A stretch of DNA of 25,718 nucleotides, from IMG/VR virus record IMGVR_UViG_3300037089_001002, positions 1 to 25,718 of that record; one strand, given 5' to 3'. A program made the position numbers and the translations under genes. The number at the start of each line of letters is the position of its first letter. Position 1 is the stretch's first letter. The stretch is from a virus. The notes beneath the pieces are model-generated. The model saw only the letters and a program-made list of their open reading frames with translations. It was not told the DNA's origin and did no database searches. Positions 1-25,536 of the stretch are shown in pieces.

Positions 1-1731
1 GCCAGTCTCACCGGAACAGAATAACCGTATCTGTATTTGCGAAGTACCTGCTGGAGCAGCTTGCGTAATAACTTGAACTCGCTGCCATGAACCGATAGTA
101 GCAGTAGTCGCCGCTGGGATTGAATTAGAGATGAATGCACCAGAGGCGTCCTGGAATTGCACCACAAGGTTAAATGTGCCGACACAGGCTCCATTGCCGA
201 ACACATCTACCCGAGCGAACACGCCAGTTCCGGGAGTAAATATATGAGGGATTACTTCGCGTATGGCCCCAGTATGCGAAGTTGGATCAGGATAGATCAC
301 ACAAGCGTTGAGTCCCGAGAATACTGGTACTCCCGAACCAACCCCACCGACGAAGGGTGTTGGTCCGAAGTAAGAATTCCATGCCGAGAACCCCTGCTCA
401 AACGACGGGTTGAGCACCATGTTGCTGAGGTCCGAGGTGTTCAACCCGAGCCCACCAGACTTCAGCACCAAGCTAGGGTCTAGCGTGGCCGGGTCCGTCA
501 TGTTCAGCGGAATCAACCCCGCCGGAAGCGTGCCGAAGTTGAGTTGGATGACGCTTCCTTGCGCGGTGCTGCTGGCCGTGTTGCTTCCTGCCCAATCGCC
601 TGGGTTGGTCGATAGCCGGTTGACCGTGACGCATTGGATTTGCAGGTAGTGGTGGGTATCTGATGCGGCGCGATAGGCGATTTCCAGGACGCCCCCGTAC
701 ACGTCGGTATCGGCGTATCGGGTGGTGCCGCCAGGAGACGCTATTTGCGACTCAAACCACTCTCTCCAAGAGCCCTTGGCATCGGACGCGGGATTCCCGG
801 CGGAATCCGTCTCGCGGACGTAGAATTTGACAAGCCACGATGGGTCAGTCGGGTCCACCCATGACAGGCTCATAAGTTCCGCCCACTGCCAGCCCGACGT
901 TTTATCGACCATGGAGGTGATCGATCCCGCTGTGATCGAGGTAACCGTCCCGCCTGCCGGCGCGGGGATTCCCGCCATGCTGAATCCCGCCGAGGCCACC
1001 GCGCCCAGCGCCGCTAGGTCCGAGGCGGAGTACTCTAACGATCCGTCGTAAGGAACGGCCCCCGCGGCGCAATACACGTGCCAGGTGGCGGCGGCGGCTG
1101 GGACCAGACGGCTGGTGGTGATTACCTGCGAACTGCCCGCCATCACGGTCCATCCCACGCACGTGTACTTGGTGATGTCCTTGGCGCTCGGCAGCCAGGA
1201 CGTCACGTTCTGCGGATAGATGCCACCGCCCAGCATCGGGGTCCAATTGATGACGGCGGAAACCGAGCGATTGGAATCCACCGTCCGGGTGCCGGAGTCG
1301 GACGCAGAGAAACCGGCGACCACCACGGAGGCCGCGACGGTAACGGTGCACGTCGTCGGGCTACCCGTCGCGATCCCCGCATCGTTTTTACAAACAAAGG
1401 TCAGGGTGAGGCTCTGAGATGCGCCGATCTGCCAGTTATCGCAAGGCCCCTTGAACGATGCCGTGGAGCCGATGAACGGCGCGTAGAGCGTTGGCAGCGT
1501 CTCAGTGTGGCCATCCGGCATGGTTGCCGAAATATCGATTTCTTTGAGATGGGAATAGTTAGGGTCCGAGGTCGGCAGGTTGATTCCACTGACGCTCTGC
1601 AACCCGAAGGCGGACCCGTTCCACTGCATGCCGTAATATGCGGAGCACGAGGCGCTGGTAATGTTCGGCGCATTCGGCGGCGGCGTGTAACCGCTGGAGC
1701 CCGCTGTCGAAAAAGTGACCCAGTTACCCAT
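1..1731 (-). CDS. Tail fibre / receptor-binding-like protein, partial (runs off left edge)
   Basis: Translating the minus strand from the ATG at 1731 gives 577 codons with no stop up to base 1, so the 3' end lies outside the window. The start overlaps the stop of the tail hub gene as TAATG, with a GGGTGG-type ribosome binding site upstream, so the two are coupled. The N-terminal half is Ser/Thr/Gly/Val-rich, predicted beta, and looks like Ig/Fn3-type tail domains. From about residue 437 a new domain begins with MVLNPSFEQGFSAW, and later has GSWQRVQV. These are typical of the CBM_4_9-like carbohydrate-binding fold found in phage receptor-binding proteins and glycanases. Position after the hub gene and this domain suggest host-surface binding. 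That is inference, since the catalytic or tip domain, if any, is beyond the edge. Confidence 0.75.
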   Translation of the reverse strand, partial: MGNWVTFSTAGSSGYTPPPNAPNITSASCSAYYGMQWNGSAFGLQSVSGINLPTSDPNYSHLKEIDISATMPDGHTETLPTLYAPFIGSTASFKGPCDNWQIGASQSLTLTFVCKNDAGIATGSPTTCTVTVAASVVVAGFSASDSGTRTVDSNRSVSAVINWTPMLGGGIYPQNVTSWLPSAKDITKYTCVGWTVMAGSSQVITTSRLVPAAAATWHVYCAAGAVPYDGSLEYSASDLAALGAVASAGFSMAGIPAPAGGTVTSITAGSITSMVDKTSGWQWAELMSLSWVDPTDPSWLVKFYVRETDSAGNPASDAKGSWREWFESQIASPGGTTRYADTDVYGGVLEIAYRAASDTHHYLQIQCVTVNRLSTNPGDWAGSNTASSTAQGSVIQLNFGTLPAGLIPLNMTDPATLDPSLVLKSGGLGLNTSDLSNMVLNPSFEQGFSAWNSYFGPTPFVGGVGSGVPVFSGLNACVIYPDPTSHTGAIREVIPHIFTPGTGVFARVDVFGNGACVGTFNLVVQFQDASGAFISNSIPAATTATIGSWQRVQVITQAAPAGTSQIQIRLFCSGETG

Positions 1732-4874: not shown

Positions 4875-4932
4875 AGGCTACGCGAATGCCTCCCTAGCCC
4901 ATGTTGCGGTACAATGAAGAAGCGGGCCGAGC

Positions 4933-4948
4933 CGATGTTCTAGCATCG
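4933..4948. repeat. Short inverted repeat in HNH leader
   Basis: CGATG and CATCG arms flank a six-base TTCTAG loop, 38 bases before the HNH start. It lies in the transcribed or promoter region of the HNH gene and upstream of the recoded hub start. A five-base stem is weak, so an operator or RNA hairpin is possible but so is chance. Confidence 0.25.
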
Positions 4949-4985
4949 ACGCAGCCCTAACCACCGATCTGAAAGGACAGACCGC

Positions 4986-5765
4986 ATGGCTGCAAACCAT
5001 CTTAGCCCAGCAACAAAGACGTGTCATAAGTGCGGGGCAGAAAAGTCCCTGGGCGAGTTCTACAAGAACACGTCCAGCAAGGACGGTAAGTGCCTCTGGT
5101 GCAAGCAATGCAGCCGAGAGAGCGCGAACCATTGGTTCAAAGCAAACCCCGAGCGGGCGAAGACTAAAGATAAAGCCTACAGAGTTGCCAATAAAGAGCG
5201 CGCCAATCAAGCCACGAAATCCTGGAGAGCAAAAAACCCGGAGAGCGTCAGAGCCATGAATAAGGCTGACCGGGCCGCCCACCCCAAGCCTATATCCGCT
5301 CAAAAGCGTAGATGGGCAGAAAGAAACCAGGAGTACGTGGCCGCCAAAGACCGGAAAGAATACCTCGCGAACGCGGAGCAGAAGAAGCGGAGCGCAAGAG
5401 AGTGGTATAAGAGCCACCCAACGGAGGCCCGCGAGCGCGCCGCAAGGTATTACGCAGAACATCGTGCGGAATTTATTGCCAAAGCGCTCGATTGGAATCG
5501 AAATCACCCCGAGAACAGAAACGCATGGCGCGAGGTGCGCCGTAAGGCGGATGGGAAGTTTACGGGATCTGATGTTCGCGCACTTTATGCGCAACAAAGC
5601 GGTCTCTGCGCAAACCCAAACTGCCAAAAGGCGTTGAACGGCAAATTTCACATCGATCACATAATCCCGATAAAAAAGGGAGGGGCGCATTGGCCGAGCA
5701 ATTTGCAACTGCTGTGCCAGCGTTGCAATCACCGCAAAGGCACGCGCATAGTAGTTGCGTGGTGA
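4986..5765 (+). CDS. HNH endonuclease with N-terminal zinc finger (probable homing endonuclease)
   Basis: The only gene on the plus strand. The 259-residue protein has three parts. Residues 13-42 form a C13-x2-C16 ... C39-x2-C42 zinc finger of the type often preceding HNH domains. Residues 45-190 are a long, Lys/Arg/Ala-rich helical linker with repeated NPE/HPE turns, likely DNA-contacting. Residues 205-252 are the HNH core, with structural cysteines C208, C213, C244 and C247, the D224-H225 pair, N239 and H249. All expected catalytic and zinc residues are present, so it is probably active. The start has AAAGGA at 4972-4977. Codon use and base composition are more AT-rich than the flanking genes, consistent with recent transfer. 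By family it nicks or cuts DNA. Its place inside the hub gene start suggests homing into that site in related phages. Confidence 0.9.
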   Translation: MAANHLSPATKTCHKCGAEKSLGEFYKNTSSKDGKCLWCKQCSRESANHWFKANPERAKTKDKAYRVANKERANQATKSWRAKNPESVRAMNKADRAAHPKPISAQKRRWAERNQEYVAAKDRKEYLANAEQKKRSAREWYKSHPTEARERAARYYAEHRAEFIAKALDWNRNHPENRNAWREVRRKADGKFTGSDVRALYAQQSGLCANPNCQKALNGKFHIDHIIPIKKGGAHWPSNLQLLCQRCNHRKGTRIVVAW

Positions 5766-5774
5766 CGGCAAACC

Positions 5775-5828
5775 CACCGGCCGTTGCGCCGCCGCCAGTT
5801 CCTTGCCGGTATTGATGTCGAAGCTCAT
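5775..5828 (-). pseudogene. Stub of the original tail hub gene 5' end (copy A)
   Basis: Starting at the ATG at 5828, the minus strand reads MSFDINTGKELAAAQRPV and then runs into antisense of the HNH gene. The ATG overlaps the TGA stop of the distal tail gene as ATGA, the coupling style used throughout the operon, so this is the ancestral start of the hub gene. Its codon use is GC-rich like the neighbours, whereas the rebuilt copy at 4874 is not. It is left as a translatable leader: the frame stays open for 316 codons, antisense to the HNH gene, up to a TAG at 4878-4880. Confidence 0.8.
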
Positions 5829-6544
5829 ACCAGTTGTTGAATCGTCCCCACGATGGAATTCTGATTCGGGCCAAGAATCCGCCAGTCGAGCGAATCCGCG
5901 CCAAACCGGCAATTCGCGTACCGGGTGCTGCTATCCGGGTCGGTGAAACCGAAGGACCGCCACTGGCCGCAAGCCAGCTTGAACATGCTCCAGATCGCCG
6001 CCGCTTCCGTGTCAGTCAACACAGCGCCGCCCACGGTCCAACTGCGCAATGAGGCCGCACGGCGCGGATAGGCATACCGTCCGCCTTCCGTGCGCACGCT
6101 GGCGGTATCGAAATTCCGGCCATATGTGTAGGGCCGCTGCATGCGCGCGCCCGTGCCCAACACCGGGAAGTCGCCCGGCATCGTTCCCGCATCCGCCACA
6201 CGAACCACCGTGGTCAGCTTCACCGTGCCCGCGACCACGTTGGGGTCGCTTTCCGTGAACTCCAGCGAGTCGGCGTCGAAGTAGAGCCCAGTGTACGTCG
6301 TGCCGCTGAACGTCAGACTGACCGACTGGTCGTAGCCACCCTGACTGGATTCGAACAGTGTGAGCAACGTGTCCCGCTGCGCCACGGACAAGTGAGGGTA
6401 AGGCAGGCTCCAGGATTCCACGCCGGTGCTCAGCATCCACCGCTGCTCCGTTCCGTTGACGCCTTGCGCGATGCCCGTCGAGAACTTCAGCGTCCGCACC
6501 ACGGGAGAGGCCCAGGCCGGGTTCGAGGTGGGGTAGGTGCTCAC
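5825..6544 (-). CDS. Distal tail (Dit-like) minor tail protein
   Basis: 239 residues, directly after the tape measure gene. The start is GTG at 6544 and overlaps the tape measure stop as GTGA. The protein looks like two related beta domains. Each has an LPYPHLS/LTDTE element, a short helix with F-x-x-x-x-G, an aromatic F-x-F/T segment, then Y-x-x-x-x-F-x-x-DSL followed by a strand ending in a Val-rich tail. The repeated elements lie at about residues 45-115 and 160-239. Such tandem domains are common in Dit/DUF2460-like proteins that join tail tube to hub. Function is inferred from position and fold style, not from a diagnostic motif. The stop overlaps the ancestral hub start. Confidence 0.65.
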   Translation of the reverse strand: MSTYPTSNPAWASPVVRTLKFSTGIAQGVNGTEQRWMLSTGVESWSLPYPHLSVAQRDTLLTLFESSQGGYDQSVSLTFSGTTYTGLYFDADSLEFTESDPNVVAGTVKLTTVVRVADAGTMPGDFPVLGTGARMQRPYTYGRNFDTASVRTEGGRYAYPRRAASLRSWTVGGAVLTDTEAAAIWSMFKLACGQWRSFGFTDPDSSTRYANCRFGADSLDWRILGPNQNSIVGTIQQLV

Positions 6545-11187: not shown

Positions 11188-11319
11188 CTACCACACGATC
11201 ACGCCCAGGCGCCCGCAGTCGCCGCACGTGACTTCGCCTGCGTCCCCCGGCGCCACCAGCAGCCGCCCACAGGGGCACGCCAGTTCAAAGATCGACTCCG
11301 CCCGGTAAGGCCGCATCAT
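11188..11319 (-). CDS. Zinc-ribbon microprotein (43 aa)
   Basis: The start is taken as the ATG at 11319, which overlaps the sigma factor stop (ATGATG); the second ATG at 11316 is equally possible. Cysteines 15 and 17 (CPCG) and 32 and 35 (CGDCG) form a CxC ... CxxC zinc ribbon filling most of the protein. It resembles Com-type small zinc proteins that act as translational activators, but the similarity is only in the zinc motif. Coupling to the sigma factor suggests a joint regulatory role (inference). Confidence 0.6.
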   Translation of the reverse strand: MMRPYRAESIFELACPCGRLLVAPGDAGEVTCGDCGRLGVIVW

Positions 11320-11813
11320 GCGAGCTTCAGCCCTTCTCGGATTCGCGCGATCGCGCGTCTCTTGATTTGATGGACCCTGCCCCTTGACAGGCCAATCTCG
11401 CACGCAAGTTCGCTCTCTGGAATACCATCGAGTAGGCGGATAACGATACGCCGCTCACGGTCCGATAGAAACCTCAGCCAAAGCCTCACCTCGGCATGGA
11501 TCGCGTCCTGCTCCTGCGTGGCGGCGGTGAACTTGTGATGCTCCAACACCGGCTCATACCTGATTGGCTCTGCCTTCCCGGCCTTTACTGCGCGTCGATG
11601 GGAGCGGCTCAACGGGTCGTTTCTTCGGAGGTAATCCAGCACCTGGCCCCGCGCCCGCTGAGACGCGAAAGTTCTGAGTTCGCATCTGCCATCGAAGTGA
11701 CTATCCGCCTGAACAATCCCAAGCCAAGCCTCCTGAACGGCATCCTCGCGAAGCCGGTAAGGCGCGATCCTCGCCGCATACGTAGCTGTGGCAAGCAATC
11801 CGACGCAGTTCAT
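11316..11813 (-). CDS. Phage-encoded RNA polymerase sigma factor (sigma-70 family, FliA/SigB-like regions 2 and 4)
   Basis: 165 residues from the ATG at 11813, which overlaps the preceding stop as ATGA. Residues 20-75 match sigma region 2 (EDAVQEAWLGI, FDGRCELRTFASQRARG, then VLDYLRRNDPLSRS), the RirGailDyLR style of FliA/SigF-like factors. Residues 115-162 match region 4, with the helix-turn-helix IPESELACEIGLSRGRVHQIKRR. Region 3 is reduced to a short linker. It would direct host RNA polymerase to particular promoters. Being inside the structural operon it cannot start that operon's first transcription, so it may amplify late transcription or switch on later genes. No matching promoter set was identified in the window. 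Confidence 0.85.
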   Translation of the reverse strand: MNCVGLLATATYAARIAPYRLREDAVQEAWLGIVQADSHFDGRCELRTFASQRARGQVLDYLRRNDPLSRSHRRAVKAGKAEPIRYEPVLEHHKFTAATQEQDAIHAEVRLWLRFLSDRERRIVIRLLDGIPESELACEIGLSRGRVHQIKRRAIARIREGLKLA

Positions 11814-12067
11814 TCCGCCGCCCCCACAAGGTGGCACGCCACCAGGGCGTCGAACCGCTCCCGGCATTCCACCGTCAACCGCGCGAACACCGATCCGGAC
11901 CCGTGGCAGAAGATCACGTGGCCGCTCGGCCGCACCGAATCCTCCATGCTGTAGACCGCGACCAGCTGGTAGCCCGCGCCTCCCTCCTGGATTTCGAAGT
12001 AGACCGTCCGTCCGGCCCGCTCCGCCTTCGCCGCTTCGCGTACCCTCTGCTCCATCACGCCGGTCAT
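11810..12067 (-). CDS. Small protein of unknown function (85 aa)
   Basis: Starts at an ATG that overlaps the preceding stop (ATGA) and ends in ATGA with the sigma factor. The N-terminal half is a charged helix (MEQRVREAAKAERAGR), followed by predicted beta strands (TVYFEIQEGGAGYQLVAVYS). A conserved-looking Cys/His pair lies in VIFCHGSGSVFA. No family is recognised. Tight coupling places it with the sigma factor cassette. Confidence 0.6.
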   Translation of the reverse strand: MTGVMEQRVREAAKAERAGRTVYFEIQEGGAGYQLVAVYSMEDSVRPSGHVIFCHGSGSVFARLTVECRERFDALVACHLVGAAE

Positions 12068-14505: not shown

Positions 14506-15564
14506 CTAGGAGGTCGTGAGCTTCTGCACCACGGCCGGCTTCAGGCAGATGGGCAGCGGGTTCGACTGGCATTCCACGTCGATGCCCTTGTCGTAGTCCA
14601 TCAGCTTCTGCTTCGCATAGAAGGGCAGGCCCTCCGTGTTGACCGTCTCCAGGTAGTCCGCCGGCGCGAACCAGTTCTTGAAGACCTGCGTCCCCATCGG
14701 GAAGAGGTAGGCGGCATTGGCGTCGATCATCGGCTGCGAGCTGCCCGCCGAATCGCTTACCGATCCGGTGTAGTTGATCCAGGCGACGTTACCGAAGATG
14801 AAGGGTTTCTCGCCGCCCGAGAACAGGCCGGCCGAGTTCGGCTGGTCATTGGCCCCGCTGTAGTCCCCGGCGAGGTTTTGCCCGTTGTTCTGGTAATACG
14901 TGAAGGCTTTCTGCACGTTGGCGTGCGACACAAACGCGTCGTAGAAGCCGTCCGAGCAGAGAGCGACCCAGCCGCGCATCAAGTCACCGCGCAAGGCGGC
15001 CAGAATCAGGCGCTTCACTAGGGCAATCTTGCCCATGATATCCGTGGTCGAGGTGCCCGTCGCGAAACTGGTGCTGGTCTGCGAGATTCCGAAATCACTG
15101 TAGATGTCGAGAATCAGATTGCCCGCGCCGTCCTTCACCTGGCCGCTCTTGAGCACACCCAGTCGCTCCCATTCGAGCGTCTGTTCGAGCTTCAGCTTCA
15201 TCTCGGCCATCTTTTTGCCGAGCAACCGCTGTACGGTCAATGTGTCGTTGGTGCCGGGAGCGCGGCGGCCCATCACGTCGGCGGCCAACACGTTATCGTT
15301 GACCACGTAGTGCGGGATGGCGAAGGTCTTGAGCTTGCCCGTGGCGGTTTTGTTGGCGACGCCGGGGGCGCCCCACTTGACCTGGGGAAGCAGTTGGTTG
15401 GTGATCGGGTCGTAATCGACGCCGACGATGTTCTGCGTGACGCCTTCATCGATAAACAGGCCGAGCGCGCCAAGGCGGCCGTACTGCGGCGTAATGTCGT
15501 TGATGAAGTTCGAGAGCGAAATGACGTTGAAGGCGTCCTGGGAAACCACGTTTACGAGATTCAT
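14506..15564 (-). CDS. Major capsid protein (lambda gpE-like)
   Basis: 352 residues starting at an ATG with AAAAAGAGG nine bases upstream. The N-terminus DAFNVISLSNFINDITPQYGRLGALGLF followed by EGVTQNIVGVDYD and LLPQVKWGAPG is the pattern of the HK97-fold phage capsid E family. Also typical are TFAIPHYVVNDNVLAADVMGRRAPGT and the C-terminal YLETVNTEGLPFYAKQ. It forms the icosahedral shell. It follows a decoration gene and a protease/scaffold gene, as in lambda, and is followed by a stem-loop. Confidence 0.92.
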   Translation of the reverse strand: MNLVNVVSQDAFNVISLSNFINDITPQYGRLGALGLFIDEGVTQNIVGVDYDPITNQLLPQVKWGAPGVANKTATGKLKTFAIPHYVVNDNVLAADVMGRRAPGTNDTLTVQRLLGKKMAEMKLKLEQTLEWERLGVLKSGQVKDGAGNLILDIYSDFGISQTSTSFATGTSTTDIMGKIALVKRLILAALRGDLMRGWVALCSDGFYDAFVSHANVQKAFTYYQNNGQNLAGDYSGANDQPNSAGLFSGGEKPFIFGNVAWINYTGSVSDSAGSSQPMIDANAAYLFPMGTQVFKNWFAPADYLETVNTEGLPFYAKQKLMDYDKGIDVECQSNPLPICLKPAVVQKLTTS

Positions 15565-19407: not shown

Positions 19408-21309
19408 TTACGTCAACCGGATTTGCAGCTTGGGACGCGCGACCACCGGAAGCGGCGTATTCGTACGCAACGCTTCCGCCATCGCTTGAAACTTCTCGAC
19501 TTCTTTATCCAGCCGGAAACTGGTCTGGAACTCCAGCCCGCGCAGACACGCGTGCTGGTAGGCGCGGATATCCAGCCACTCATTGCGGATGCCCTCGCGC
19601 TTTTTCCGCCACTGGAAAATCGGGATCGGATGCGAGTAATCCGGGACTCGGATCTCTGCGGTGAGCATTTCGAACTGATCGAGCGTGCGGCCGGTCGGGA
19701 AGTGGCAGCAGCCCGGCCCTTCCAACACCCGCAGCCGGGCGTACACGGTTTCCTTGAGCCCGTCCACGCCAATTACAAACGCCGGCGACGGCCGGTTCGG
19801 TTTTGTCTTCGACGCCCTGGTGGGCCACGCCGGCCGGTCCTGCCCGTCGCGCCCGATCACCGCCCACACGTTGCGCTGGCGGCGCGCATGGCACCACTTG
19901 CGCACCAGGTCCTGCTGGTAGCTCGCGTCCACGCAGCCCGCGCGGATATTCAGCACGAGGCCGGTCTCGCTCAGGTACGTGCTGGCCAGCAGTTCGTCCA
20001 GTTCCTGCCAACATTGGCTATCGGCCCGCGAGGTGTCGCCGCGGAGTACCCGGTAGTCGAGCGACCAGTTTTCCTCCCGCGCGCCCCACCCCAGAATTTC
20101 CGCCTCAATGCGGTCTCCCTGCACGTCCGCCGCCAGCGTGAGGCACGCAATGCCAGCGGGAATCGGCAGACTGTAGGTTTCGCACCGGGCCAGCAGCGTT
20201 TTGGCGTCCGCCGCGGCTTCGCTCGGGTCTGCCCACGGCTTCCCCTCTTTCAAATTCACGAACGTCTGTTTCGCCCGCGGCTTGTCGTGGTCGCGTTCCC
20301 ACTCCGCCGCCAGGTTCGTCCACTTATTCCCCGGCCAGCCGTAGGGATAGATCAGGGAGCCCACGTGGTAGCTCCGGATATTCATGTGCGCGCCATTGCC
20401 GGGCGCCTGGGGCATCCATTCGCCGCGCGGCAGGATGTCCACTTTCCGCCACTCCTCGAACTGGTCGCCACAGCGCTCGCACTGGTACTGTGCTTTTTCC
20501 GGCTCACCCTTCGGCCAGCGCATCCCGCCCGGCTCTTTCCGCATGAAGCGGTCGGCGCCCCACACCAGTTCCTGCATATGTGTGCAGTAGGGGCAGGGCA
20601 CAAAGAATTCGCGCTGGTCGCCCGCCTGGAACCAGTAGTGGATGTTGCCGCCCTTCCGCGTCGGCGTCGAGGTCAGTAGGATCTTGCGGTCCCAGTAGGC
20701 CGCCGTGCGCTGAATCAGAATGAAGAGCGGGTTGCCTTCCTTGTCCACATCGAGCGGATAGCCGTCCACTTCGTCGGCGTAGACCACCGGCACGGGATCC
20801 GAGCGTAGTCCCACGTTGGAATTGGCGCCGACCAGGATCAGCGAATCCCGGCCGGCGCCGAATTCCTTCATCAGCAGGTTGTTAGAGCCATCGCGTCCCC
20901 GCGATTCAACGACCAGGTCGCGGAGCACCGGAGTGCCGGCGAACATCCGATCCAGGCGGCGCCTGCTGAACTTTTTGGCCGCTCCCTCGGTAGGAAGCAC
21001 GAGCATCATGTCCCGCGGCCACTGGTGCATGTAGGCGCCGAGGAAGTTGAGTCCGCCTTCCGTACCGGCGCCCTGCGCGGCTTTCATGAGCGCGCAAATC
21101 TCGCACGGGTCCGAGGGCGACATGCGGTCCATGATTTCCCGCATGTACGGCACACGCTCGGTGCGCCAGGGGCCAGGCCACGGCGACGGCTTCGTGACCA
21201 TCCGGTAGGCATCCGCCCACTCGGAGACGGTCATGTCGGGCGCGGGTTGCAGACCACTAGCGAAGGCTTCAGCAAGCAACGCTAGGGCGGCCATCAACAA
21301 CCTCGGCAT
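19408..21309 (-). CDS. Terminase large subunit (lambda gpA-like)
   Basis: 633 residues from the ATG at 21309, chosen because TCAGGAG lies five bases upstream; an in-frame ATG at 21363 has no such site. It matches phage terminase GpA. ATPase motifs are the P-loop-like KAAQGAGTEGGLN at 76-88 (no classical GKT/S, as is common in GpA), Walker B VVYADEVD at 175-182, and motif III LLTSTPT at 211-217. A zinc knuckle at C239/C242 and C277/C280 (CPYC, CERC) follows, then the nuclease domain with LTLAADVQGDRIEAEILGW and VDASYQQDLVRKW. It cuts concatemers and pumps DNA into the head. The first ~40 bases overlap the end of the small subunit gene. Confidence 0.92.
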   Translation of the reverse strand: MPRLLMAALALLAEAFASGLQPAPDMTVSEWADAYRMVTKPSPWPGPWRTERVPYMREIMDRMSPSDPCEICALMKAAQGAGTEGGLNFLGAYMHQWPRDMMLVLPTEGAAKKFSRRRLDRMFAGTPVLRDLVVESRGRDGSNNLLMKEFGAGRDSLILVGANSNVGLRSDPVPVVYADEVDGYPLDVDKEGNPLFILIQRTAAYWDRKILLTSTPTRKGGNIHYWFQAGDQREFFVPCPYCTHMQELVWGADRFMRKEPGGMRWPKGEPEKAQYQCERCGDQFEEWRKVDILPRGEWMPQAPGNGAHMNIRSYHVGSLIYPYGWPGNKWTNLAAEWERDHDKPRAKQTFVNLKEGKPWADPSEAAADAKTLLARCETYSLPIPAGIACLTLAADVQGDRIEAEILGWGAREENWSLDYRVLRGDTSRADSQCWQELDELLASTYLSETGLVLNIRAGCVDASYQQDLVRKWCHARRQRNVWAVIGRDGQDRPAWPTRASKTKPNRPSPAFVIGVDGLKETVYARLRVLEGPGCCHFPTGRTLDQFEMLTAEIRVPDYSHPIPIFQWRKKREGIRNEWLDIRAYQHACLRGLEFQTSFRLDKEVEKFQAMAEALRTNTPLPVVARPKLQIRLT

Positions 21310-21982
21310 ATTGGCTCCTGATTTCTGTGGCAATTCGTTGATCCACGTCCCGCAGCGCGGCACGGATGCGCCGCTCTATTTCTCCCAGGTCCGTCAACCC
21401 GAGTAGATTCGGAGCCAACGACGTGGCCACCGATTCCCGCCCCTGCGCGTGCATCCGCCCCATGGCGGCGAAAGCCTTCTGCACCTCGTCAGCCGCCAGC
21501 AGCTCGCCGTCTTCCTTGGCCAGCGCGCGCTCCGCCGCCAACGCGTTCGCCCGCTGCTCGCGCGTCTTCCACACCATGAACGAGTCGCCATCGACCACGT
21601 TGTCCAGCGCCGCCCGGGCCAGGCGCTCCGCCAGCGGAACCGGCGGCGGCAACGGGTCCGGAAACGCGGCCAGCCAGTCGTCCGAGTGGCGCGAGAGCGT
21701 TGAGGGGGCGTTTTCGACTACCCCTTCCAGCAGCGGCAGAGTTTTCGGAGGGGTCGTCACGGCTGGCGCGGCGCCGGTGGGTGCGGCGGAACTCCCGCGT
21801 TGCAACGCCTGGTCCGTAGTCGCCGCCCACCGCGCGTCCGCGTCCGCGGAATCGATGCGTTTTTCGGAATTTTGCAGGATCCGGCCGGCCGCAAGGGCCT
21901 TTTGCACCGCGCGCAGCGTTCCGCCCTTCAGGCCGTGGGCCTTCCGGTGCGCCGCGTACTGCCGATATCCCATCAACGCCAT
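21269..21982 (-). CDS. Terminase small subunit (Nu1-like DNA-binding protein)
   Basis: 237 residues if started at the ATG at 21982 (MALMGYRQYAAHRKAHGLKG). An ATG at 21973 and a GTG at 22051 are alternatives, none with a strong ribosome binding site, so the start is uncertain. Residues ~5-35 fit a winged helix-turn-helix of the Nu1 type (YRQYAAHRKAHGL then GTLRAVQKALAAGRI). A Pro/Ala-rich linker follows, then a C-terminal helical region (DEVQKAFAAMG, then LGEIERRIRAALRDVDQRIATEIRSQYAE), as in small terminases. It recognises the packaging site next to the large subunit gene. Overlap with the large subunit supports the pairing. Confidence 0.7.
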   Translation of the reverse strand: MALMGYRQYAAHRKAHGLKGGTLRAVQKALAAGRILQNSEKRIDSADADARWAATTDQALQRGSSAAPTGAAPAVTTPPKTLPLLEGVVENAPSTLSRHSDDWLAAFPDPLPPPVPLAERLARAALDNVVDGDSFMVWKTREQRANALAAERALAKEDGELLAADEVQKAFAAMGRMHAQGRESVATSLAPNLLGLTDLGEIERRIRAALRDVDQRIATEIRSQYAEVVDGRPSVAC

Positions 21983-22228
21983 AAGACTACCCGACGACAA
22001 ACCTACGCCTAAGACTGACGACTCCCCAAAAACCCACTCACGATCCCTCACTTGCCGTCAATTTACCCGCACGCGGCGGGTGGCCTGGGAAGGACCCACT
22101 GAACCAAGGGAACTGTTAGAAGGAAAGGCCAATACGACTCAGCGGAACTTACATCGAGGAAAGATCGAAGGTTTGCGACTCAACTTACCCGACCCAGCTT
22201 CGGGCCGCGACTGGCTACCGATTCGGGC

Positions 22229-22242
22229 GGTAGTCGGCTACC
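22229..22242. repeat. Small hairpin GGTAG-TCGG-CTACC
   Basis: A five-base stem with a four-base loop. A second GGCTACC lies at 22213-22219, so two alternative pairings are possible. It lies in the intergenic region upstream of the small terminase gene. Too short to assign; possible part of a packaging site. Confidence 0.3.
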
Positions 22243-22304
22243 AAGGAAGCTATCACGGATTAGTTGGGGTGTCAAGAGCAACACATCTACAGGTTGTGTA
22301 CTCA

Positions 22305-22548
22305 TTGACTCACGTCACCCGCGCGTACAGCACTCCACACGCTGCATTAACACAATCGCCACTAAAACAGGCATTCTGAATAACTCTTTGTAACTACGTG
22401 AGTCATCAAGTCAGACTGCACGATAAACAAACCAAGGGACTTAGCATGACTCGTATCTTTGTCACTGGATTTATACTGAGTCAGAATTGACTTGATGACT
22501 TGATGAAAACACGAATGACTCACGACCTATCAAGTAGGAGTGAGTCAT
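22305..22548. repeat. Cluster of TGASTCA and TGACTTGAT repeats
   Basis: Five copies of TGASTCA occur: TTGACTCAC 22305-22313, GTGAGTCAT 22398-22406, TGAGTCA 22477-22483, ATGACTCAC 22515-22523 and GTGAGTCAT 22540-22548, with a one-mismatch copy ATGACTCG at 22446-22453. A related TGACTTGAT occurs as ATCAAGTCA (22405-22413) and as a tandem nine-base pair at 22488-22496 and 22497-22505. The last two TGASTCA copies form a perfect nine-base inverted repeat around a 16-base loop. The density and dyad symmetry suggest binding sites for a repeated protein: replication initiator, regulator or small terminase. Confidence 0.65.
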
Positions 22549-22579
22549 TAAAGGAGAGAAAAATAACTGTGGAAAAGAA

Positions 22580-24709
22580 TTATGTGGAGGGCCACCGATA
22601 CACGCGGCGCCGCTTCCCGCGACCATTCGGCTCGCGCTCGATCTCGCCGTCACTGTCGTACACGGTCTCTTGGAGCGCCACCGCCCCATGCCGCCGCATG
22701 ATGCGCCCGATGCGGCGCTTGTCGGCTTCCTGCCACGCGGCCTCCAGCTTCTTCAGCGCCTTGCTGAGGATCTCCGCGTTGGTGATAAAGAACGCCTCCG
22801 GAGGATTGCCACCCTGATCGTGCTGCGCGCGGGCGCCCTCGACAAACTCCCAGACTGTCGAGTCCCACGGGTCCGCCTCATACCGCATGTCCTGCTCGAC
22901 GGCCGCCAGCTCTACCAGCTCCGCCGTGTCCAGGTGCCAGGGCTCACGCCGCTCATAGCGCTCCCGCGCCTCCGCCCACAACTGATCGCGATCGCGCTCG
23001 AGTCCCGCAATGTCGATAAAACCGCAAGACACCGGCCAGAAACGCCGCGCGCCGGTATCGTCGCGGAAGTACTCGCCCAGGTTGACCGTGCCGGCGAAGA
23101 TGCATTGGCGCGGGAAGTCCGCAGGCCTGCGGTCGTAGGGCGGCCGGAAGCGATCCACGCGGCGCGTAATGAACGCCTTCACAACCGCGGTCTCCGCGCG
23201 CAGTCCAAGCAGTTGCTCCAGCTCGGCGAACTCGACAATCCATACACCATGGATCTGCTGGGCACTGTCTTTGTTGTTGAGGTCGCCCACCTGGTCCGTG
23301 AACCAGTCGCCCGCGAGCACGCGCAGGAGCGTGCTTTTTCGCTGCCCTTGCGGCCCCTGGAGGATCAGGCAGTGGTCAACCTGGCATCCCGGCTCAAACA
23401 CGCGAGCCGCTGCGGAGATCAGCCAGCGCGAGCCCACTGCGCGCGAATATGGCGAATCCTTCACGCCGGCGTAAGTAGACAGCCACGTGTCGATGCGCGG
23501 AACCTTGTCCCACACCAGCTTACTCAGATACTCGCGTACCGGATGAAAAGAGCGCTCTCGCGAGACCGCCGCCACAGCTTCCGCGGCCGCATTCTTATTG
23601 ACGCTGCAAAAGTGGTGCTGCAACCACTCCGCCAGGCGGATATCGTCCACCTCGCACCACTCGCGGCTTCCAGGGTTCCACGGTGAGCCCGCGAGCGCCA
23701 TGGTGCGCACCGCAAACTCATCGTAGGACGTCATGTCCTTTAGCTCCGGATGGTGCGTCAGGAACGTGATCGCGTTCGCCAGAATTGGCTTGATGCCGTT
23801 ATCGCCCTCGATCAGATTCTTGCGCCAATCCTCGCCTTCGACGGCCTCCGCCACCGTAGGCGCCGTCTTGCGCTTGCGCGTCACCTTGCGCGCTTTGCCG
23901 ATCTGGCGAATAGCTTCCTCGGGGCCGCGCGCTGCCAGAAAATCGTCAATCCCGTTCAGCGTTTCCGGCACGTCAGCCGGCCATTTGAACCACGAGACCT
24001 CGGCGCCGCGCGATTCGACTTCTCGGGTGAGCTGCCGGCGCGCTTCGCCGATCTGCGCGATCCGCTCGACATTGCTGTCGAACAGGATGATCACCTTGCG
24101 GCCGCCCCATGCGATGCGTCCGAGATCGGCCACCGGGCCTTTCACATCCTGGAACTGGCCCGGCCCTTCCGCCTCAACGCGGCCCACTTTTCCGCGCCAG
24201 CTAAATGTGCCTTGAAGCCCCAGAGGTACGAATGCCGGTGATTCGGCTACGTCGCCCAAACCGTGCCAAGCCAGGCGCCATAAAGCGAGCGCCTTGAATT
24301 CGCCCTCGACGATCACGAGCGGCATCCCCACGTCTACCAGGAATCGCGCTTCCAGCCCCGGCGGAAAGTAGATCGCGTTGCCACGCCCCGGCGGTCCCAT
24401 GTACTTACGTCGCTGGTGCGGCTTTCCGTCCTTCTCTTCCAGGTCCGGATGATCGCGCCGAATCCGTTCCAGGCGCACGTGGTTCTCGCCTGGCCAGAGG
24501 TAAGGAATCACGATGCCGCTGAAGTCAGAACCAGATTTCCACTCGTGGCGTTCCTTGCCTTCCTGGCCGAGGATGATTGCGCCGTCAGTGGAATCGACGC
24601 GGCGCAAGAACGCGGCGTCGGCCTGTTCGCGCGGAATCCAGCGCGCTTCCAGCTTCTCGTAATCGGCATCGGTCAACGGGTCGCCGGTCAAATTGGGAGG
24701 CAGGGTCAA
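22580..24709 (-). CDS. Primase-helicase: TOPRIM-like (DUF3854) plus VapE-type ATPase
   Basis: 709 residues. The start is a TTG at 24709 overlapping the preceding stop as TTGA; it is an uncommon start codon but no ATG lies before the conserved region. The N-terminal half has a DUF3854/TOPRIM-like core, with VEGEFKALALW around residues 134-144 (Glu136) and KVIILFDSNV around 205-214 (Asp211). The C-terminal half is a virulence-associated E-type superfamily 3-like ATPase: Walker A GPQGQRKST at 452-460, VWIVEFAELEQL at 489-500, and GARRFWPV near 553-560 as a probable arginine finger. Such proteins unwind and prime phage DNA. It is adjacent to the repeat-rich region, a plausible origin. Confidence 0.85.
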   Translation of the reverse strand: MTLPPNLTGDPLTDADYEKLEARWIPREQADAAFLRRVDSTDGAIILGQEGKERHEWKSGSDFSGIVIPYLWPGENHVRLERIRRDHPDLEEKDGKPHQRRKYMGPPGRGNAIYFPPGLEARFLVDVGMPLVIVEGEFKALALWRLAWHGLGDVAESPAFVPLGLQGTFSWRGKVGRVEAEGPGQFQDVKGPVADLGRIAWGGRKVIILFDSNVERIAQIGEARRQLTREVESRGAEVSWFKWPADVPETLNGIDDFLAARGPEEAIRQIGKARKVTRKRKTAPTVAEAVEGEDWRKNLIEGDNGIKPILANAITFLTHHPELKDMTSYDEFAVRTMALAGSPWNPGSREWCEVDDIRLAEWLQHHFCSVNKNAAAEAVAAVSRERSFHPVREYLSKLVWDKVPRIDTWLSTYAGVKDSPYSRAVGSRWLISAAARVFEPGCQVDHCLILQGPQGQRKSTLLRVLAGDWFTDQVGDLNNKDSAQQIHGVWIVEFAELEQLLGLRAETAVVKAFITRRVDRFRPPYDRRPADFPRQCIFAGTVNLGEYFRDDTGARRFWPVSCGFIDIAGLERDRDQLWAEARERYERREPWHLDTAELVELAAVEQDMRYEADPWDSTVWEFVEGARAQHDQGGNPPEAFFITNAEILSKALKKLEAAWQEADKRRIGRIMRRHGAVALQETVYDSDGEIEREPNGRGKRRRVYRWPST

Positions 24710-25536
24710 GCCGTGGCCTCACGTGGATATGGTCCGCGACGCCCCTGTCGGCATCTCGCAATTTGGCCAAGACCAGCCGCATCATAGGCTCCGTATGTAC
24801 TGCCGAACGCCCTTCGAAAAGTCTCCATGCTCGGCAAACTGCCTGAAGCCCAGTCACGAACCGCTGGCAAACGACGGTTCAGGACGTAGAAATCCATCAA
24901 CAGTTCGCGCAATACGGCCTTCGTGAACGGGTCTCCCCTGCGACCTCCCCGGACATTAGTGATAGGCAGACCGATTGCGGAGACAGCATCGTTAAGGCTG
25001 CCATACCTCTTCGTCAGTTCGTGTAGAAAATTGGGTTCGAGGTCGGTGCTACTTGGCGTCCGTCCAAGTTCGGAGGCTATAATTGCTAGCCTCGCAAGCA
25101 ATTGGCGGTCACAGATGAGACGCTCATTTCTCAGTTCCGCGGTAGAATGCCGTTGAGGCGTGGGCCTTTTTACCTCCAGGCTTCTCGCCTGCAGGCGCGC
25201 CATTGATTCTGGGGTTCTGAGGACGCCCCCGGCTGCAAGACGCTCCGACAGCCTTCGGCGGCGCTTGGCCGACTCAGCCGGACCGCAAAGCGGTTGCCCG
25301 TACCGCAGACCGTGCGCACGCCTGTACTCGACCGCCTTAAGACCGTGAGCGCGAGCCGCGTGGCATCCGAGGTCGCGGTACAAGTCGCCGCACTCATGGC
25401 ATTTGACCATTCCCGTTTCTGGGCAGTATTCAATCAGGCCAGTCTGCGACTTGCCAGAGGGCATAAACCCGAACACGGCCTTTTCCTCCCATCGGAAAAC
25501 CTGCCCTCGCATAATTACATGGCTCAGATGTGTCAT
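24706..25536 (-). CDS. MucR-like zinc-finger protein with two homing-endonuclease-type repeats
   Basis: 276 residues, starting at an ATG that overlaps the previous stop (ATGA). Residues 46-80 (CHECG ... CHAARAH, then EYRRAHGLRYGQPL) resemble the MucR/Ros C2H2-type finger, with Cys46, Cys49, His59 and His64. A basic linker follows, then two repeats typical of HNH-associated 'homing endonuclease repeat' modules: about residues 146-193 (ASELGRTPSSTDLE ... KRYGSLNDAVSAIGLP) and 207-257 (YVLNRRLPAVRDWA ... RAFGSTYGAYDAAGLG). No HNH, GIY-YIG or other nuclease core is present. It may be a DNA-binding regulator or a homing endonuclease that lost its catalytic domain. The C-terminus is coupled to the primase-helicase start. 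Confidence 0.75.
   Translation of the reverse strand: MTHLSHVIMRGQVFRWEEKAVFGFMPSGKSQTGLIEYCPETGMVKCHECGDLYRDLGCHAARAHGLKAVEYRRAHGLRYGQPLCGPAESAKRRRRLSERLAAGGVLRTPESMARLQARSLEVKRPTPQRHSTAELRNERLICDRQLLARLAIIASELGRTPSSTDLEPNFLHELTKRYGSLNDAVSAIGLPITNVRGGRRGDPFTKAVLRELLMDFYVLNRRLPAVRDWASGSLPSMETFRRAFGSTYGAYDAAGLGQIARCRQGRRGPYPREATA

Follow-up and report, generated by a model that had tools for sequence, protein, structure and literature searches.

What is the function of a dense cluster of short repeats that fills the gene-free region between the replication and the packaging genes of a virus? We addressed this question for an IMG/VR virus fragment of 25,718 bp (the whole stretch of DNA that was analysed, hereafter the window), in which nearly all genes point leftward. 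A gene for a MucR-like/HNH-repeat protein is followed by that for a primase-helicase with DUF3854 and VapE-like parts (end at 22580), the repeat-containing gap, the genes for a small and then a GpA-type large terminase subunit, and by portal, S49 protease, capsid, and tail genes. A first-pass annotation had left three functions open: an origin with iterons, an operator array for a regulator such as the MucR-like protein, or a cosB-like site for the Nu1-like small terminase. From comparative sequence analysis, we consider it about 85% probable that the array is an iteron-type phage replication origin of the SaPI/PICI type, placed directly 3' of the phage's own VapE-like primase-helicase gene.

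Five copies of TGASTCA are present in the entire window (22306, 22399, 22477, 22516, and 22541), all of them inside 242 bp (22306-22547). Dinucleotide shuffles of the window let us expect about 2 copies over its whole length; no 245-bp stretch contained more than two in 400 Markov simulations, and the gap, when shuffled by itself 5000 times, likewise never exceeded two. A second element, TGACTTGAT (0.05 copies expected), occurs four times: three copies lie within the array at 22488 (+), 22496 (+), and 22405 (-), the first two as a tandem pair with an 8-bp period, and the fourth is found at 14978 inside the capsid gene. The clustering of five TGASTCA and three TGACTTGAT elements and the tandem pair described by the first-pass annotation were thus borne out, and neither the simulations nor the local shuffles ever came near such clustering. 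The inverted repeats proved to be longer than the perfect nine bases that it had listed: two arms (22401-22413 and 22488-22500), 74 nt apart, match over 13 bp, and two additional perfect inverted repeats of 10 bp are present (22514-22523/22540-22549 and 22306-22315/22396-22405). Its view of the surroundings also holds, since the gap (22052-22579; 528 bp) is gene-free, has 52% A+T compared with 37% for the window, and is bordered by the primase-helicase and small-terminase genes; the array occupies the region 31-275 nt 3' of the helicase stop codon. A degenerate family-wide consensus (GTGNGNCA) was not enriched in the window, so that the signal is carried by the phage-specific motif only. A single DnaA-box (TTTTCCACA, 22568-22576) is within chance expectation, and GC skew was uninformative and gave no origin signal.

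The array can be divided into blocks A to D (Table 1). The block A hairpin has a calculated stability of -16.9 kcal/mol, and hairpins exist at the matching place in the two nearest relatives (L002 and L146) and in the Marinobacter phage PS3. A T-run is missing in the window but follows the hairpins of L002 and L146, so that block A may have a double role, being part of the array and also ending the helicase transcript. When the iteron is read as GTGAGTCA, the tandem sets of the window are oriented opposite to those of most other phages, a feature that is unexplained. The promoter-like element beyond block D probably starts the packaging operon, judged from its conservation, and could be influenced by the initiator as a side role; the case for a promoter is weakened by a sigma-70 scan, which did not flag the element.

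Table 1. Features of the repeat array and its neighbourhood, in leftward order
Feature	Position	Strand	Evidence or remark
VapE-like primase-helicase gene; N-terminal DUF3854, predicted C-terminal winged-helix-like domain; proposed initiator	22580..24709	-	PF05272, 1e-77
Block A: inverted pair of iterons GTGAGTCA; 10-bp perfect arms, hairpin-capable	22514..22549		32-66 nt after helicase stop
Block B: tandem TGACTTGA-TGACTTGA-TGA iterons, 8-bp period	22488..22506	+	
CTGAGTCAG: palindromic iteron-like copy beside block B	22476..22484		
Spacer B-C, 74 bp, 59% A+T; proposed melting region	22414..22487		76 nt in L002 and L146
Non-repeat block in spacer (CTAAGTCCCTTGG...), common to window, L146, and L002	22430..22444	-	alignment
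Block C: tandem iterons, TGACTTGA-TGACTCAC, in opposite orientation to block B	22398..22413	-	
Block D: single iteron, TGACTCACGT, in opposite orientation to block C	22306..22315	+	
Conserved ACCTGTAGAT and TTGACA-N17-TAGCTT, promoter-like	22247..22294	-	alignment of window, L002, and L146; weak
Conserved GGGTCCTTCCC...CGGGTAAATTGA block, cos-like (putative)	22058..22097	-	alignment; between array and small-terminase gene
Small terminase subunit gene; outside origin	21269..22051 (~22051)	-	phrog_57, 6e-14

A DNA similarity search of the region in a phage collection gave no match, and single-protein scans gave only L002. The large and small terminases of L002 are 72% and 64% identical to those of the window, respectively, and the helicase of L146 (record G019, incomplete, 37.8 kb) is 66% identical over its whole length. 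Both relatives retain the helicase gene and an alignable gap, and L002 also the small-terminase gene. Large-terminase relatives in bacterial genomes were rejected as a comparison set because, at ~38% identity, they are too distant for a comparison of the gap. The first-pass annotation had proposed to look for the motif at the same place in relatives; the letters do not recur, as TGASTCA is absent from L002 and none was seen in L146 on reading, but the position and the spacing of the array do. At matching positions, the relatives possess repeats of their own, GTGTGACAG in L146 and GACRTGAC plus GTTACA in L002. The L002 elements (GAGACRTGAC...GTTACA) are located at 505-524, 601-621, and 700-719, and the tandem TGTGACA elements of L146 at 5536-5551, 5628-5654, and 5741-5756; the L146 sites are degenerate, were detected with mismatches, and scored low in the exact-8-mer test (z 0.6). 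Window, L002, and L146 share one plan: a hairpin after the helicase gene, followed by three blocks in alternating orientation ~90-100 bp apart (B to C ~90-96 bp; C to D ~96-99 bp), with the inner arms of B and C separated by 74-76 nt. The layout is, as these alignments indicate, inherited, and the letters of all sites have changed together in each lineage, which points to one binding protein with a changed specificity. Conservation of position and spacing with other letters is as expected of an initiator-iteron pair.

Several other observations were made in these records. In L002, a reading frame (966-1217 (+)) with a helix-turn-helix-like segment (SYRQIADQVGCTRQHVGQIVKATGL) separates the array from the small-terminase gene; the gap of the window is shorter and lacks this frame. 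Encoded in G019 (L226 7737-9863 (-) and 2835-5741 (-)) are a protein of 708 aa that combines ParB N-terminal and helix-turn-helix (HTH) domains, and a DUF5131 domain split over two adjacent reading frames; by eye, TGACTCACG and TGTGACACGTG resemble parS half-sites of ParB. A 76.6-kb record (L003), in which the helicase was not found, starts just before the small-terminase gene and has several GTGGTCAGTGG repeats at 1-110. Elsewhere in the window, two tail genes enclose a low-GC stretch with an HNH/endonuclease VII-like gene on the opposite strand (4986-5765 (+); phrog_1035); in G019, the matching tail genes are only ~340 bp apart, and this HNH gene has no match in that record. In the reading frame 4878-5912 (-), the beginning of the adjacent tail protein recurs (MSFDINTGKELAAAQRPV vs MSFTINSGKESSAAPRPV), and this suggests a homing-endonuclease insertion with a duplicated gene start. 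A sigma-factor-like protein of RNA polymerase (11316-11867 (-); phrog_351/1740) is encoded amid the structural genes and had no match in G019 at E 1e-4.

Does the array belong to the helicase gene or to the packaging genes? A scan with the helicase C-terminus yielded 80 loci, 78 of which were tested; these include near-duplicates, and of the 51 to which an iteron was assigned, 32 are distinct. Over the 78 loci, the median number of repeated 8-mer pairs was 61 in the 600-bp bin that follows the helicase stop codon, as opposed to 14-21 in every other 600-bp bin within 4.8 kb, and the bin after the stop codon was the most repeat-rich one in 51 loci; z values of the exact-8-mer repeat test reached 75. 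About a third of the 78 loci had no visible array. Large arrays, such as GGTTGGGAA in L005 (11 copies), ACCCGGACC in L155 (12 copies), and ACGTGGAAC in L147 (11 copies), have a tandem spacing of ~9 bp and form two opposed clusters. Particularly telling are loci L005, L011, and L012, in which the small-terminase gene is 1.6-3.3 kb away and the repeats remain with the helicase gene (repeat counts at the helicase vs the small-terminase gene: 319 vs 3, 51 vs 26, and 38 vs 24). Fourteen annotated records were also inspected: clear arrays lie 3' of the helicase gene in phages SamW, Lena, IPLA35, RcMcDreamy, PS3, and U5 (in the latter after the helicase gene plus one small ORF), and the signal is weak or absent in the others; no array was visible by the VapE-type helicase genes of ECOO78, FoX1, VarioGold, BT04, and Ln-8. 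The next genes differ among the array-bearing cultured phages, and the stretches fetched from them carry no origin annotation. In PS3, the eye discerns a hairpin, a tandem set, a spacer, an inverted tandem set, and a hairpin. In the Rhodobacter phage RcMcDreamy (L236 3523-4213), the helicase gene is followed by four CCGCTCAG repeats, spaced 11 bp apart, within a 690-bp stretch at the record start that bears no annotation. Collectively, these data show that the array belongs with the helicase gene and not with the terminase gene.

Of the readings offered by the first-pass annotation, an origin with iterons is well supported: dozens of phages have such an array after the helicase gene, irrespective of the gene that comes next. 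The iteron letters themselves correlate with helicase similarity (rank r 0.35-0.44; Mantel p 0.001); a weak point of this reading is that the C-terminal domain did not outperform the helicase core as a predictor of these letters (partial r about 0). By sequence, the helicase of the window matches SaPI1 PriRep (PDB 7pds; E=2.8e-41), and its AlphaFold (AF2) model (mean pLDDT 89) matches the same structure, solved with dsDNA, in a Foldseek comparison (E=2e-28, ~460 columns). Judged by sequence and model, it is a VapE/Rep-type enzyme that is predicted to load itself; in the model, three helices and a beta hairpin make up the last 95 residues, and the C-terminus is predicted to be winged-helix-like. 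In the mechanism that we propose, this winged-helix domain would bind the iterons of blocks A/B and C/D, and two hexamers, one over each pair of blocks, would face each other across the A+T-richer 74-bp spacer. The spacer would then be melted, the helicases would load themselves, and bidirectional replication would start, as has been proposed for SaPI/PICI Rep and SCCmec Cch2, and primers would be made either by the primase-like N-terminal part or by a partner protein.

An operator array through which the MucR-like protein or some other regulator of transcription would control the packaging operon is a very unlikely alternative to this iteron origin. The promoter-like conserved element stands just past block D, which is at most 40 bp away from it, and the MucR-like/HNH-repeat gene precedes the helicase gene. 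That gene (24706-25536 (-)) overlaps the helicase start and joins a ROS/MUCR zinc-finger-like part and a homing-endonuclease-associated repeat in one protein (PF05443 and PF18780). However, nine or more sites spread over 240 bp with a tandem spacing of 8-9 bp are unusual for an operator, the arrays of other phages follow the helicase whatever gene is next, and the incomplete record G019 has a similar array and no PF05443 (MucR-like) match, which disfavours the MucR-like protein in particular.

A cosB-like array, to which the Nu1-like small terminase would bind in order to position terminase for cutting at a nearby cos, is in our view very improbable. The array recalls lambda cosB (R sites, gpNu1) in that several short sites lie close to both a cos-like block and a small-terminase gene; the N-terminal region of the small terminase is Nu1-like, the gene for this protein is next to the array, and the conserved cos-like block is found between the two, ~200 bp beyond the array. 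The L146 record starts within this block, as a cohesive end would give, although this may alternatively be an assembly break. Lambda cosB lies between the cos site and the terminase gene, whereas the repeats studied here are on the helicase side of the block; this location beyond the likely cos, as seen from the terminase gene, argues against cosB, as does the small terminase itself, whose N-terminal HTH region is nearly identical in the window and L002 though the repeat letters differ. Moreover, the repeats track the helicase, and not the terminase, where the two genes are apart. A phage attachment site, with the array as integrase arm-type sites, which likewise are short repeats and often occur in tandem pairs, is exceedingly improbable, given that the repeats track helicase genes and that neither the window nor G019, both incomplete records, has a match to tyrosine integrases (PF00589) or large serine recombinases (PF07508).

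For the iteron origin, the comparative data leave room for a broader picture, which we put forward tentatively and as a possibility rather than an expectation: SaPI/PICI-type origins might form a replicon class that is widespread among tailed phages and largely unannotated, and whose iteron set would be rewritten in step in each lineage with its spacing and orientation staying fixed. Iteron arrays exist at the matching place in cultured phages of Marinobacter, Pseudomonas, Corynebacterium, Paenibacillus, Staphylococcus, and Rhodobacter. If true, each phage would possess a private origin, for example as an escape from replication interference by satellites or superinfecting relatives. The place of the arrays also offers a simple rule by which phage origins can be predicted from sequence alone, and a recognition code could be derived from a large natural set of helicase-iteron pairs.

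Among known systems, the alpha protein of phage P4 is a primase-helicase initiator whose C-terminal part binds iterons at ori and crr. Alpha and its ori are mentioned in earlier work (PMC6092414, PMC7145576), and the likeness to our array is a lead from description. In SaPIs and SCCmec, iterons are located directly downstream of the helicase gene and are bound by the C-terminal domain (PMC7581432). The putative SCCmec Cch2 origin resembles the array of the window in having direct repeats immediately 3' of the gene for a helicase that loads itself, as is predicted for ours, and its repeats are bound by the C-terminal domain, a role that we propose for that of our helicase; it has only three 5-nt iterons, and its helicase is of a D5-like subfamily, nearer to SaPI5 Rep (PMC7581432). 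PICI origins consist of an A+T-rich region flanked by two iteron sets (PMC6092414). The window resembles the SaPI/PICI Rep-ori pairs (PMC7581432, PMC6092414; 7pds) in its helicase class (VapE-type, predicted to be self-loading), in iterons directly 3' of the gene, in two iteron sets (A/B and C/D) around a spacer that is A+T-richer than the DNA overall, and in the predicted winged-helix-like helicase C-terminus. It differs in the iteron letters and in the extra inverted pair (block A) beside the gene. A phage-inducible chromosomal island is a satellite without full virion genes; the carrier here is a tailed phage and not a satellite, with both terminases, portal, protease, capsid, and tail genes of its own in the window. 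It is well supported that the array is a replication origin of a known mechanistic kind, one that in tailed phages seems to be common but unannotated.
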